The position numbers and the translations under genes were made by a program. A stretch of DNA of 64,000 bases from Robiginitomaculum sp. (GTDB lineage Bacteria > Pseudomonadota > Alphaproteobacteria > Caulobacterales > Maricaulaceae), in the NCBI GenBank assembly GCA_015485155.1, contig WFUF01000027.1, forward strand, positions 62,001-126,000. The letters run 5' to 3'. A model generated the notes under the pieces. It was not told the DNA's origin and did no database searches. It saw nothing but the letters and a program-made list of their open reading frames with translations. Shown one piece after another: positions 1,772 through 19,717 of this stretch; position 1 is the first letter of the stretch, and the number at the start of each line of letters is the position of its first letter.

Positions 1772-3466
1772 TTATTCCTGTTTCTTAATGTTGGAATTGA
1801 GGTTTTCTTTACGGTCACGATATTTATTGGTTATCGGGTATCGTCGATCCCGGCCAAAATTTCTATCACCTATTTTCACCCCCGGCGGGGCCTGCCTGCG
1901 TTTATATTCAGCCAGATAAAGCAAATGCTCAATCCGACGCACATCCTCGGCGCTATGCCCCTGTAAAAGCAAAGAAGAAGTTTCTGCCTCTCCCTCAACC
2001 AAAGCCATCAGCATATTATCGAGCACATCATATGGCGGCAGGCTGTCTTCGTCTTTTTGATTATCACGCAGCTCAGCCGTTGGTGGTTTATCAATCATAT
2101 TTTGCGGAATTACTGACCCTGCCGGGCCAAGCATGCCTTTTGGGTAATGGTTATTACGCCAATTAGCCAGGGCAAAAACATCGGTCTTGTAAATATCCTT
2201 TAGCGCATTATAGCCACCACACATATCGCCATATAATGTGGCATATCCTACTGCCATTTCAGACTTATTGCCGGTAGTCAGCACCATGTGTCCAAATTTA
2301 TTGGACAAAGCCATCAATAATACTGCCCTGGCTCTTGATTGCAGGTTTTCTTCGGTGGTGTCGGTGTCCGTATCCAAAAACAGCGGAGACAATGCCTTGT
2401 GCAAGGCGTCAATTGTTTCGGTAATGTCAATGGTATCATAACGACACCCCAGATAAGAGATACATTGCTGCGCATCTTGCAAACTCTCATCAGAGGTGTG
2501 TTTTGAGGGCATCATCACACACCAGACCCGATCAGCTCCCAATGCATCAACCGCCAACGCTGCCGTTAAGCCTGAATCCACACCGCCAGATAAACCAAGC
2601 ACCACACCTGCAAAACCATTCTTGTTCACATAATCAGCAATACCAAGAACCAAAGCTCGCCAACGGCTTTCCAGCATATCCGGCAATAGGGCTAATTCCG
2701 CGCTTTTACACTGCCACTGATTTTGCTCATATTTCCAGCACGCCAAAGATAAGTCTTCACTAAAAGCTGGTAATTGCTGAACAATTTCACCAGATGCATC
2801 ATAGGAAAAACTGGCGCCATCAAATACCAACTCATCCTGGGCCCCTACCTGATTAACAAAAACCAACGGAACATTTGCAGTTTCTGACCAAGTCCGAAAG
2901 GTTTGATGGCGAATATCGGAAATTGAGTTGCGAAATGGAGATCCATTCAAACTGATCAGGATTTGTGCGCCCTGCTCTACCAGATATTGCGGTATTTCAG
3001 GAAACCATATGTCTTCGCAAACCGGCAGACCAAGCTTGACACCACGCCAAAGTACGGTCTTTGGCATGGCACCGGGGCTAAACACCCGCTTTTCATCAAA
3101 TACCCGGTAATTCGGCAGTTTAACCTTGTCATGGCGGGCAAGAATTTTACCCTCATCCAGAAGAAACACCGAATTGTAGAGCTTTTCACCTGCAAGCCAT
3201 GGCGCCCCCACCAGCAAGGCCGGGCCGCCATCTGCAGTATCAGCAGCCAATTCACGAACCTTGTTCATTGCATCGCGAACCAAAGCCGGTTTTAGAACCA
3301 GGTCCTCCGGCGGATAACCAACCACCACCATTTCCGTACACGCTATCAGGTCAGCACCACTTTTGGCGCCCACACTGCGGGCATGTCGTATTTTGGCTGT
3401 ATTTCCGTCCAGATCCCCGACAATAGGATTTAACTGGGCAGACAAAATATTGATTTCCTCACTCAT
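1772..3466 (-). CDS. nadE: Glutamine-dependent NAD+ synthase
   Basis: This is the last step of NAD synthesis: ATP-dependent amidation of deamido-NAD with ammonia taken from glutamine. The 564 residues hold an N-terminal nitrilase-type glutaminase domain (about 1-260) with a Glu/Lys/Cys triad visible at E45 (CTEMVV), K114 (KVKLPNY) and C150 (LPVCEDIW), then the synthetase domain with its pyrophosphate loop LSGGVDSG at 292-299. Length is normal for the two-domain form. The gene lies 33 bp after the oxidoreductase at 3500-4438 and ends 3 bp before the TTG start of the carboxylase, so the three are probably co-transcribed although no shared pathway is evident. Confidence 0.95.
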   Translation of the reverse strand: MSEEINILSAQLNPIVGDLDGNTAKIRHARSVGAKSGADLIACTEMVVVGYPPEDLVLKPALVRDAMNKVRELAADTADGGPALLVGAPWLAGEKLYNSVFLLDEGKILARHDKVKLPNYRVFDEKRVFSPGAMPKTVLWRGVKLGLPVCEDIWFPEIPQYLVEQGAQILISLNGSPFRNSISDIRHQTFRTWSETANVPLVFVNQVGAQDELVFDGASFSYDASGEIVQQLPAFSEDLSLACWKYEQNQWQCKSAELALLPDMLESRWRALVLGIADYVNKNGFAGVVLGLSGGVDSGLTAALAVDALGADRVWCVMMPSKHTSDESLQDAQQCISYLGCRYDTIDITETIDALHKALSPLFLDTDTDTTEENLQSRARAVLLMALSNKFGHMVLTTGNKSEMAVGYATLYGDMCGGYNALKDIYKTDVFALANWRNNHYPKGMLGPAGSVIPQNMIDKPPTAELRDNQKDEDSLPPYDVLDNMLMALVEGEAETSSLLLQGHSAEDVRRIEHLLYLAEYKRRQAPPGVKIGDRNFGRDRRYPITNKYRDRKENLNSNIKKQE

Positions 3467-8534: not shown

Positions 8535-8735
8535 AAAATGCAAATCCTTGTCTATCGCATTTTTGACCGCAAAACCCGTCCTCAAGTAGCGAAGCGGTAG
8601 GACAAACAAAGAGTCCTCAAGTAGCCGCTAGGCGATAGGACATTAAAAGAGCTTCCCACTTTTGCTAAAAATGCAAATCTTTGTTTATCGCATTTTTGGC
8701 CGCAAAACCGGTTCCCACTTTTGCTAAAAATGCTC
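8535..8735. repeat. Intergenic repeat mosaic resembling alphaproteobacterial RIME-type repeats
   Basis: Two tandem copies of a unit reading AAAATGCAAATC(C/T)TTGT(C/T)TATCGCATTTTTG(A/G)CCGCAAAACC start near 8535 and 8667. The second continues into GGTTCCCACTTTTGCTAAAAATGCTCTAG, the same wording as the ends of rhizobial intergenic mosaic repeats. TTCCCACTTTTGCTAAAAATGC occurs twice (8653 and 8712). Between them two hairpins start GTCCTCAAGTAGC and end TAGGAC (8578-8603 and 8613-8641). It fills the gap between the peroxiredoxin 3' end and the thioesterase start; no coding potential is seen. Confidence 0.7.
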
Positions 8736-9262
8736 TAGCGACTCTTGAGATAGTTCAGCATGGTCTGCGCGTCGGATACCTCGAATGGATCAGAACCGCA
8801 ATTATCGGAAAAACCATCCTCGACGAACATTTTCTTAATCACGCCATCTTCCACATACATGGAATAGCGCCAGCTTCTCATCCCGAATCCAAGATTAGAT
8901 TTGTCTACTAACATACCCATTTTGCGGGTGAATTCCCCGCTTCCATCAGGAAGAAGAAACACATTCTTTGCACCAAGGTTTTGACCCCACTGATACATGC
9001 AAAAAGCATCATTTACCGACAGGCAAACAACTGCATCAACACCTTGCGCAACCAGATCATCAAAAGCAGCCTCATAGCCTGGCAGATGGGTACTGGAGCA
9101 TGTTGGAGTAAAGGCCCCTGGCAGGGCAAACAATACTACATTTTTACCACCAAAAAGCTCATCGGAACTAAGATCCTTCCACTCAAACGGGTTATCGCCG
9201 TCCAGAGCGTCATTGCGCACACGGGTTTTAAACACAACGTCAGGAACCTTTGAATTGATCAT
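8735..9262 (-). CDS. Peroxiredoxin, Prx5/AhpC-TSA type
   Basis: A 175-residue thiol peroxidase that reduces hydrogen peroxide and alkyl hydroperoxides in the cytoplasm. The peroxidatic cysteine is C55 in LPGAFTPTCSSTHLPG; the conserved arginine lies in MGMLVDKSNLGFGMRSWRYS. A late cysteine (SDNCGSDPFE, near 155) is in the place where atypical 2-Cys or glutaredoxin-linked members have a resolving residue. The track ORF begins at 9328, but ATG 9262 has GGAGAA six nt upstream and matches the family N-terminus. It is separated from the upstream dehydrogenase-family gene by 100 bp. Confidence 0.92.
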   Translation of the reverse strand: MINSKVPDVVFKTRVRNDALDGDNPFEWKDLSSDELFGGKNVVLFALPGAFTPTCSSTHLPGYEAAFDDLVAQGVDAVVCLSVNDAFCMYQWGQNLGAKNVFLLPDGSGEFTRKMGMLVDKSNLGFGMRSWRYSMYVEDGVIKKMFVEDGFSDNCGSDPFEVSDAQTMLNYLKSR

Positions 9263-10223: not shown

Positions 10224-10458
10224 GCTAAAACCTCCAGATTTTATAAGGGCTGCCAACTAAATTACATAATTTGACCAAAGCACAAAGGCTAATGCGACCA
10301 AATGCTTTCAAATCAGGATCTGTTTTCATGCAAGCTAAATTGCCAAAATTAAAACTGCAAGAAAACGCTTATCTGGTTTTTCTCACGGGATAAGAGCAAG
10401 AGGCAAGGGCGCATTTTTGTGACTGCCAGCTAGAATATTGACGCGTCATGAGCGCAAA

Positions 10459-10692
10459 AAACCCTTTTGCTTTATTGGTTTTGAGAAAAATATTCACCTG
10501 TCAAAGAGCATTTGTTTGGGTGCGCAGCACCCCAACTCTTGTATTATAACAGCTCTGGCAAGTGCGGGCGCCTTTTGCACTTATCCCCACAGCCCAAGGG
10601 TCAGTTATCATCATCAAGGGCCACTTAAGGGTCATCTGGTTATCAAAAGTGCTGTTTTGGTATGATTACAGGGGATATCAAGTATCACTCAA
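10459..10692 (+). repeat. Inverted repeat arm A (~235 bp)
   Basis: This arm matches the reverse complement of 11511-11745 over its whole length with scattered differences. Near-identical blocks include ATTGGTTTTGAGAAAAATAT, CCTGTCAAAGAGC, ATTATAACAG, CACTTATCCCC and AAGTGCTGTTTTGGTATGAT. A hairpin (TTGGGTGC/GCACCCCAA near 10514-10533) occupies the same place as a differently worded GGGG/CCCC hairpin in arm B, so the pairing is kept while the bases differ. The arm holds AAGGGTCA at 10596 and 10627 and AAGGGCCA at 10616. Confidence 0.8.
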
Positions 10693-10840
10693 GAATTACG
10701 GTTACAGTTTACTAAATGCACTTAATTACTTCCTTCACCCTTCGTCCTGGGGCCACGTCTTTGATGTGGCTGGTGTATCCGTCTGCCCTGCCGGGCCTTC
10801 TACAGCTATTTTTCATCCCCCTGATCAAAAATTTGAACTG

Positions 10841-11044
10841 ATGTTCAAACTCTTCCTAAGTATCCTTGGCCCGGACGACGATTACGACCTGTCAATGGAT
10901 GCAGGCATCAAATATGGCTTTGATGAGTTTACTATTTGCGGATTCTTGTGGATTGATCCGAGGCCCAACAACATCACCGACCTGATGGAAGCCGCCTGTA
11001 ACGCTATCGAAGAAGTGTGGCTGGAGGAACCCGCAAAAGAGTAA
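10841..11044 (+). CDS. Hypothetical small protein between the inverted repeat arms
   Basis: The track frame runs 10562-11044, but its first part lies in repeat arm A and reads like noncoding sequence. From ATG 10841 the 67 residues (MFKLFLSILGPDDDYDLSMD...) look protein-like: acidic, with an amphipathic C-terminal helix (NNITDLMEAACNAIEEVW). No Shine-Dalgarno sequence is obvious and I recognise no family. It may be a remnant of a longer gene rather than an active one. Confidence 0.3.
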   Translation: MFKLFLSILGPDDDYDLSMDAGIKYGFDEFTICGFLWIDPRPNNITDLMEAACNAIEEVWLEEPAKE

Positions 11045-11510
11045 TGCGCTAAATTCACCCGCTCTGCACAGCTTTGGTGCAACTTTAGAAGGCTTTAGAA
11101 AGGGTCTGTGGGCGATTTTGGCAAAAATACGCCCCATCACCGCTTGAATGGGTACCATGAGCGCCAGTGCGGCAAAATTTCAAGTGGGTTGAGTTTTGTC
11201 CGATTACCCATTATGTTTCATGGAAGAGGCGGGAAACTATTCCCGGTGGGAGCTGCGCAAATTAAAGCGTTCAGCCTCGGACCACCACCCGCCTCTTTAT
11301 TCAAGACATGACTTCAACCTCATCGCCAATTACTTCCCCTCGCTATTCGGTCAAAATTGAACGCTACTTAATTTAGCCCTCATCATATCCCAAAAGGAGA
11401 GGCAGAAAACGTGCGCCTCGGGAAGGGATTGGACACAAACTTGTAAACCTTGTTCAGCGAAGGTTACTCTTAGGGTCAGCGCTAAGGGTCAGTGCCATTT
11501 TTCGCTGCCC

Positions 11511-11745
11511 CTTGGGTGATACTTGCACCACCCTGTAATCATACCAAAACAGCACTTGCTGGTAATAAAATGACCCTTAAATGACCCTTAGGTGTACTGG
11601 CTGACCCTTTAGGATCGGGGATAAGTGGTAAGGATGCCCGCCAACCTTAAGCCTGTTATAATGTAAGAGCTGGGGCAAAACCCCCGACAAATAAGCTCTT
11701 TGACAGGTAAATATTTTTCTCAAAACCAATAAAACAAAAGGGTTC
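11511..11745 (-). repeat. Inverted repeat arm B (~235 bp)
   Basis: Partner of arm A in opposite orientation, about 820 bp away. Read on the minus strand it carries the same order of elements: ATTGGTTTTGAGAAAAATAT, CCTGTCAAAGAGC, a GGGG..CCCC hairpin, ATTATAACAG, CACTTATCCCC and three AAGGGTCA words (TGACCCTT on the plus strand at 11571, 11582 and 11602; spacings 11 and 20). Two more plus-strand copies (11471, 11484) lie just outside. The length is far above normal IS terminal repeats and no transposase lies between the arms. Confidence 0.8.
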
Positions 11746-11934
11746 TGCCTGCTTGCACCGTGCCGGTAATTTTAACAGGTATTCGTATAAATACTCCCTG
11801 CTTCCGGCACTTATCCACCGAACAGAATAGGAAAAGTTTTTGCGGGCTATTTCACTATGACTTATATTTCTATCCTTGTTTTGATTGATCAAACCATTAT
11901 ATAAGCACTACCTAATATGCGCAGGAGAAATGCC

Positions 11935-18495: not shown

Positions 18496-19467
18496 TTATC
18501 CTCCAATATCGGCAAGTTTTTGTGTACTGCCGCTAAAGCCTTCGTGCAAAAAATGCGAAACCTTTTTGTAACCTAAACTTTGGCGCACAAAGGCCTGCAA
18601 AGCGGGGATCTGGGAATCACATTGTAATAAATGACGCATGGATATCCCGTTCTCCGAGAACAGGCACAAATGCAAATTGCCGCGCGCTGATACCCGCAAA
18701 CGATTACAACTGGTGCAAAAATCCTTTGAGTATGGGGCAATCAGGCCAATGCGCCCGGTAAATTCTCCATGCACATATTCCTGTGCAGGCCCGGCGCCGG
18801 CTTCACGGCTTTTTTGCACCCAGCCCAAAGCCTGCAATTGATCAGAAATTTTGCTGGCCGCAAGGTGATAACGCTTAAAATATTCGGCATTATCACCAGT
18901 GCGCATCAATTCAATAAAGCGGACGCTTATCGGGCGGCTTTTGATAAAATCAAGAAACAAATCTAAATCCTGATCGTTTACCCCTTTAAGCAGAACCGCA
19001 TTGACTTTAACCGACTTGTATCCTGCTGCCAGACACGCCTCGACACCATTCATTACTTCGGCCAGGCGATCATGGCCGGTTAACTGGTGAAAGGTGCTGG
19101 CATCAAGACTATCAATGGAAATATTGATCGCATCCAGACCAGCATCACGCCAGATTTGAGCCTTTTGCTCCAGCTTGTACCCATTGGTGGTGGTGGCCAG
19201 AGTTTTTACTCCATTTACCGACTTTAGCACCTGAATGATTTTTAGAAAATCCCGGCGCAAGCTCGGCTCGCCACCTGTTATGCGAATTTTCCACATGCCA
19301 AGGGCTGCAAAAGCAGTGGCAAGGCGACGAATTTCGTCAAGACTTAAAAACCCAGGCCCGGGTTTTTTGACAAAGCCATCAGGAAGGCAATAGGAACAGG
19401 AAAAATTGCAAACGTCTGTCACCGACAAACGCAAATAACTAAAGTCACGGCCATAGGCATCGCGCAT
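18496..19467 (-). CDS. moaA: GTP 3',8-cyclase (radical SAM)
   Basis: First enzyme of molybdenum cofactor synthesis, rearranging GTP by radical SAM chemistry. N-terminal cluster C20/C24/C27 in DVCNFSCSYC, SAM-binding ITGGEPSLR, a C-terminal second cluster CTSCNRLRVSARGNLHLC, and the functionally important C-terminal Gly-Gly (LADIGG). I choose ATG 19467 (323 aa, GGAAAGGAAAG upstream) because it matches the usual length and leaves the structured leader upstream untranslated; the track ORF begins at 19560. It is the first gene of the operon. Confidence 0.93.
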   Translation of the reverse strand: MRDAYGRDFSYLRLSVTDVCNFSCSYCLPDGFVKKPGPGFLSLDEIRRLATAFAALGMWKIRITGGEPSLRRDFLKIIQVLKSVNGVKTLATTTNGYKLEQKAQIWRDAGLDAINISIDSLDASTFHQLTGHDRLAEVMNGVEACLAAGYKSVKVNAVLLKGVNDQDLDLFLDFIKSRPISVRFIELMRTGDNAEYFKRYHLAASKISDQLQALGWVQKSREAGAGPAQEYVHGEFTGRIGLIAPYSKDFCTSCNRLRVSARGNLHLCLFSENGISMRHLLQCDSQIPALQAFVRQSLGYKKVSHFLHEGFSGSTQKLADIGG

Positions 19468-19485
19468 ATCACTTTCCTTTCCAAT

Positions 19486-19595
19486 TGCGGGAGGCATTGG
19501 TGTTTCCACAAACAATACCCGGCAGCTAACATTAGCTACTGTCCTGTAATCCATGCCCACATGAGCGAAGGTTTACAGGCTTCGGAAGTAATGAG
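19486..19595 (-). promoter_or_regulatory. Structured moaA leader, candidate molybdenum-cofactor (Moco) riboswitch
   Basis: The 5' leader of the molybdenum operon. Read on the minus strand it forms GGTATTG-TTT-GTG-GAAA-CAC-CAATGCC (19493-19519), a 7-bp stem, a one-sided internal loop and a 3-bp stem closed by a GNRA tetraloop, followed by CTCCCGC. Upstream lie an AGCTAA/TTAGCT hairpin and CTTCCGAAGCC...CGCTCATGTGGGCATGG. Moco RNA motifs lie upstream of moaA-type operons and use a tetraloop-receptor contact; the resemblance is from memory, and a covariance-model search was not possible. The element ends about 20 nt before the moaA start. Confidence 0.5.
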
Positions 19596-19717
19596 ATCAA
19601 GGTTAGCCTGCCAAATCACACAGAGCAATAAAAACCGCCGCGACATTTTGAAACACAAGGCTCATCACCCTGTGTCACCACTGGCTAAATTTGAGATTTA
19701 GAAGAATTTGCAAAGAA

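Follow-up and report, generated by a model that had tools for sequence, protein, structure and literature searches.

Genus-specific small RNAs in multiple copies are known in few bacteria. Repeats of the REP/BIME, ERIC and Correia types occur in dozens of intergenic copies, often at the 3' ends of genes, and are mosaic in make-up. The rrn operons are RNA genes scattered over the chromosome, which they rearrange by recombining, and their rRNA copies are homogenized. In Bartonella, the Brt RNAs are genus-specific alphaproteobacterial intergenic noncoding RNAs of 194 to 203 nt, found in up to 34 dispersed copies that are 74 to 100% alike and whose number differs by species; each gene precedes an XRE-type regulator gene (trp), and in B. 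henselae the copies lie grouped within one part of the genome (PMC5387305). The leaders of rRNA operons carry a nut region in which boxB and boxA act in Nus-factor antitermination (PMC5725501, PMC10250234), and one of these studies left noncoding RNAs out of its boxA search, by its own remark (PMC5725501).

The locus described here lies in a 64,000-nucleotide stretch of a Robiginitomaculum sp. genome, which we call the window. A preliminary description of the window, made from its letters, reported a diverged inverted duplication. Self-alignment recovered these mirror-image arms at 76% identity over 239 nt (blastn, E=2.6e-39); the arms, at 10459 to 10692 and 11511 to 11745, are collinear and keep blocks I1 to I5 in the same order at 73 to 89% identity. 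The locus returned 84 blastn matches, spread over most contigs, in the organism's own genome (G000, 2.39 Mb in 27 contigs), so the inverted duplication consists of two neighboring copies of a dispersed repeat. The arms are not a local structure; they are two copies of a dispersed element of ~400 bp. Copies were extracted with their flanks to make a profile of the unit, which spans ~384 bp and extends a few bases further on the terminator side. The profile limits exceed the arms and place the element at 10380 to 10693 and 11457 to 11822, with the terminator just beyond. The preliminary description had correctly called the arms too long for IS ends and noted that they enclose no transposase, while its suggestion of an origin or partition-like site is unlikely given so many scattered copies.

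Further copies, which the preliminary description had proposed looking for, were abundant in the genome and its relatives. For counts across the genus we used R1, a model that covers 212 positions and relies on sequence alone. It matched 59 times in the own genome, a figure that includes whole copies, contig-end halves and fragments (~40 are complete), and 34 times in the sister species, Robiginitomaculum sp. S012 (G006, here J; JALSYJ01), which is a MAG from a low-coverage metagenome assembly. An exact core pattern searched in the genome collection also matched many S012 contigs. Elsewhere in the genus, R1 gave 55 matches in G009, 50 in G014, ~30 each in G004 and G002, and fewer in others, so that diverged copies were present in 16 of 18 genomes and absent from two. 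A family-wide sample, with filters stricter than those of the genus search, had matches in 9 of its 99 genomes, all from this one of 19 genera; no copies were found in the other 18 genera sampled. Neither the phage and plasmid collections nor the viral contigs matched the element, and an IS or phage origin was dropped on these grounds; a known RNA family was dropped as well, as Rfam returned no family above its gathering cut-off. No reading frame common to most copies of the unit was found, and these results together speak against arms left over from a known IS or from duplicated protein genes, the outcome that the preliminary description had named as contrary to its reading. A literature search for an identical family found none. 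In the own assembly, many contigs (C1, C2, C4, C5, C6, C7, C9, C10, C16, C18, C19, C20, C27 and others) end inside a copy, and the repeat thus limits the assembly of this genome.

We describe the unit as it reads on the strand complementary to arm 1. A complete copy begins upstream with an array of TGACCCT-type and AAGGGTCA sites, and its upstream half holds the near-invariant blocks GCTGTCCCTTGAGTGATACTTG, CCCTGTAATCATACCAAAACAGCACTT, TGACCCTTAAATGACCCTT, ACTGACCCTT, GGGGATAAGTG and GCCCGC, between which lie spacers that are hypervariable in sequence and near-constant in length. A separate regulon of TGACCCT pairs was considered and rejected, since nearly all of the 50 matches to that pattern in the genome lie within known copies of the element. 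The extended -10 promoter-like sequence TGTTATAAT is found in 61 of 63 copies. It is followed by hairpin H1, the boxA-bearing GCTCTTTGACAGGTAAATATT, a weaker hairpin (AAACCC/GGGTTT), a variable part, and a terminal stem (CTTATCC...GGATAAG) with a T-run. The first 11 nt of GCTCTTTGACAGGTAAATATT, GCTCTTTGACA, are identical to the boxA of the own genome's 16S leader and nearly invariant across the family. The spacing of the T-run is also conserved: TTTT occurs 180 to 189 nt from the -10 in 49 of 63 copies, and a run of at least four T's occurs 172 to 208 nt from it in 60 of 63. Copies in G009 and G014, whose sequences are otherwise widely different, have a run of at least five T's at 184 to 190 nt in 11 of 14 cases. 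The T-run usually sits behind a predicted stem, which folds slightly better than shuffles (median z -0.52).

H1 is the hairpin in which the preliminary description saw different bases with preserved pairing. It is present in both arms and more stable than shuffled sequences (median z -2.25 over 53 distinct versions from two species), but in the two closest species no specific co-variation reaches significance. In an arm-swap test based on folding energy, a kind of test chosen because stem registers differ between copies, p was 0.33 for the two close species, because their arms are nearly all G-rich or C-rich, and 0.011 for the diverged G009 and G014. The pairing of H1 is therefore kept, with co-variation shown in the G009/G014 relatives only.

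Because a promoter-like box, H1, boxA and a T-run at fixed distance follow one another, we read the unit as an RNA gene of ~175 nt, and we think it probable that the arms are two divergently oriented members of a gene family, dispersed and confined to the genus, that encodes an untranslated RNA of that length. Paired small RNA genes were the best supported of the three options raised in the preliminary description, except that the pairing is incidental and the arms are two of ~40 to 60 dispersed copies. Counting against an RNA gene, no good -35 box was found in the copies analyzed, and conservation in the upstream half is strongest in DNA blocks, which would also fit a pure DNA-binding element. 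RNAalifold found no global conserved fold of the whole element, which likewise weighs against an RNA gene, as do the modest stability of the terminal stem relative to shuffles and the non-significant co-variation of H1 in the two closest species. A single large structured RNA of ~380 bp was dropped, as neither strand has a conserved fold, and for this reason we prefer the shorter unit.

The two units in the window run divergently. Predicted ncRNA 1 (arm 1, ~175 nt, minus strand) would extend leftwards from ~10536 to 10362, its ends placed by the family spacing between the -10 and the T-run (10365 to 10362). Its -10 box, TATAAT within TGTTATAAT, is at 10543 to 10548; H1 (GGGTGC/GCACCC), identified from the sequence and from folding against shuffles, is at 10518 to 10532, and the boxA-like GCTCTTTGACA is at 10499 to 10509. 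A putative upstream regulatory region at 10550 to 10693 has AAGGGTCA sites at 10596 to 10603 and 10627 to 10634; it is cut off at ~10693 and has neither the GGGACAG end nor the TGACCCT array. Predicted ncRNA 2 (arm 2, ~173 nt, plus strand) would extend rightwards from ~11669 to 11841, ending in a T-run at 11837 to 11841. Its -10 box, again TATAAT within TGTTATAAT, is at 11657 to 11662, with H1 (GGGG/CCCC, folding against shuffles) at 11672 to 11685 and GCTCTTTGACA, matching the rRNA-leader boxA, at 11695 to 11705. A predicted terminator-like stem (CTTATCC/GGAAAAG, one mismatch) followed by TTTTT occupies 11810 to 11841. The putative upstream regulatory region of ncRNA 2, at 11457 to 11655, contains the TGACCCT-type array, CCCTGTAATCATACCAAAACAGCACTT, TGACCCTTAAATGACCCTT (11571 to 11589) and GGGGATAAGTG, and here too the conserved blocks alternate with variable spacers of near-constant length.

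The preliminary description called the region gene-poor, which holds in part: an open frame of ~110 codons (10704 to 11044, plus strand), outside the RNA-gene family and without a Pfam match, lies between the units and has a second, 89%-identical copy at G000:C27:175150. Together with the sequence downstream of it (10704 to 11302), the frame is duplicated at 89% in G000:C27:175150-175739 (L009:651-1240), ~103 kb away, where only one RNA-gene copy accompanies it. Both sites have a long-range hairpin, AAGAGGCGGG ... CCCGCCTCTT (window ~11222 to 11303; L009 ~1165 to 1240), whose interior differs between the two copies and which is possibly another structured RNA or repeat.

Among described systems, the Brt RNAs appear to be the closest analogue in kind. 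Each consists of multiple homologous copies that are scattered over the genome and occur in a single genus, their sequence relation having been checked through Rfam only. The Robiginitomaculum family differs in its greater copy number, its boxA-like motif, its upstream site array and its near-free assortment of blocks, and its units are not placed immediately before a trp (XRE regulator) gene. The rRNA leader shares with the unit the order of predicted promoter, hairpin and GCTCTTTGACA, including the 11-nt identity to the boxA before the own 16S gene, but no rRNA follows the unit (Rfam matched no rRNA in the window), and the unit would stop ~185 nt past the -10. REP/BIME, ERIC and Correia-type repeats are similar in having dozens of intergenic copies, a location at gene 3' ends and a mosaic make-up; they differ from this element, which is longer (~400 bp), has a promoter-like box, a boxA-like motif and a terminator-like end at fixed places, and is limited to one genus.

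In the mechanism we propose, proteins that bind the upstream TGACCCT/AAGGGTCA sites would control RNA polymerase as it starts at the extended -10. The NusB-S10 (Nus) complex may then be recruited, as in rRNA leaders, by the boxA and 5' hairpin of the nascent transcript, and the RNA would end at the terminator. The boxA match would connect the unit to the Nus-factor pathway through putative NusB/S10 binding. The most likely use would be as an RNA that is produced in high copy and acts in trans or by titration, for example a decoy for boxA binding that is coupled to growth rate, and the copies would swap parts through frequent recombination. A fuller version of this proposal is speculative, and we would not expect all of it to hold: the ~40 to 60 rRNA-leader-like RNA genes would regulate Nus-dependent transcription or act on it as a boxA decoy, with their upstream blocks in linkage equilibrium and chromosomes rearranged at them, and so would form a dispersed, continuously recombining gene pool within one chromosome. 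If true, an rRNA-type boxA in such a family would tie genus-specific multicopy small RNAs to growth control and the Nus machinery. The near-random way in which blocks assort inside a 400-bp repeat, combined with breaks in gene order at the copies, would offer a natural measure of genome shuffling by dispersed RNA genes in bacteria.

Comparisons between the sister species show how the copies have evolved. Copies with orthologous flanks are 78.8% identical, compared with 78.1% for random between-species pairs and 79.0% and 78.9% for pairs within each species, while the flanks are ~95% identical between the two. Locus identity has been kept in at least one copy (L128/L167). In the upstream half, distances at one variable block say almost nothing about those at its neighbor, also within each genome alone, with a weak correlation for one pair (sp_-10/spA, r=0.21 in the own genome); linked blocks are those within the H1 region and those of the 3' part (terminator, H4, H3, H2). 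Several spacer alleles are common to both species. Since blocks assort almost freely and orthologous copies are no closer than random ones, exchange appears to be frequent and to proceed without homogenization. The family resembles rrn operons as dispersed RNA genes that are targets of recombination, and differs from them in that copies of the same genome exchange blocks and yet remain ~21% different.

Gene order often differs between the sister species at the copies. Of the J copies whose two flanks could both be placed in the own genome, three are joined as, or apparently as, in the own genome (L073/L169, L093/L151 and probably L128) and ~16 otherwise, although in this low-coverage MAG, with several partner sites at contig ends, individual misjoins are possible. 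The genes flanking the window units (3-hydroxyisobutyrate dehydrogenase-like and DUF302) are not neighbors in J or in the other genus members checked. Recombination between copies is probably the cause of these differences. The presence or absence of copies also differs between species, and few positions are common with G009/G014. One copy (L206 ~3031 to 3112, G000:C16 ~104.5 kb) is truncated to its upstream end and stops at an IS-like palindrome; the sister species has a full copy at this site.

Several other explanations would account for parts of this pattern. The most serious rival to an RNA gene, and already raised in the preliminary description, is a nonautonomous, MITE-like mobile element whose blocks bind an enzyme encoded elsewhere, whose promoter and T-run are incidental, and for which convergent gene ends are safe landing places. 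We consider it unlikely. High intergenic copy number, variable presence between species, the few positions held in common with G009/G014 and truncated copies such as L206 and arm 1 would all be expected of it, but no related autonomous element or transposase was noticed between close copies, terminal inverted repeats were not recognized, the two ends differ in alignments, and the few site pairs that could be compared have no target duplication at their flanks. Absence from phage, plasmid and viral collections and confinement to one genus do not favor mobility either, and an 11-nt match to the rRNA boxA directly after a promoter and hairpin, or a T-run whose distance is kept in diverged lineages, would be unexpected. 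A chromosomal site for protein binding or recombination, which organizes or shuffles the chromosome and for which exchange between copies is the function, would explain the constant-length hypervariable spacers between near-invariant blocks, their free assortment and the synteny breaks at most comparable copies. This is less probable still, as exchange points are spread all along the element with no single core, no recombinase was identified, and the promoter, boxA and T-run are left unexplained.

Genomic context bears on whether the unit is instead a leader or promoter region of adjacent protein genes. Both window units point at the start of a same-direction gene, as such a region would, but they are exceptions: in 27 of 36 own-genome copies, counted from the ORF table, the promoter-distal end faces the 3' end of an opposite-strand gene, and copies in G009/G014 have the same tendency. 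Neighboring genes vary in size and distance, are mostly on the opposite strand, and include no common neighbor that we could see, and a terminator-like end closes the unit. These observations largely refute a leader, which we regard as very improbable, and a position facing opposite-strand gene ends would suit the free-standing RNA gene that we favor. It is equally improbable that the mosaic and rearrangements are artefacts of assembling repeats from short reads. The many contig ends within the element and the low coverage of the sister genome would be in keeping with artefacts, but neighboring spacers ~25 to 40 bp apart, within single reads, are already unlinked in the own genome, and flanks align as single blocks over ~70 of 80 kb. 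The concern bears on the rearrangements more than on the mosaic.

Two further features were noted in the window. Runs of (G)TCCTCAAGTAGC..GCTAGGCGATAGGACA and GCATTTTTAGCAAAAGTGGGAACCGGTTTTGCGG units at 8540 to 8740 belong to a second set of short intergenic repeats found in this genus, which often adjoin RNA-gene copies (e.g., in the flanks of L079, L130 and L214). A molybdenum/tungsten riboswitch (RF01055, 56 bits) lies at 19458 to 19599 on the minus strand, and the ORFs around it resemble molybdate transport and molybdenum-cofactor genes.
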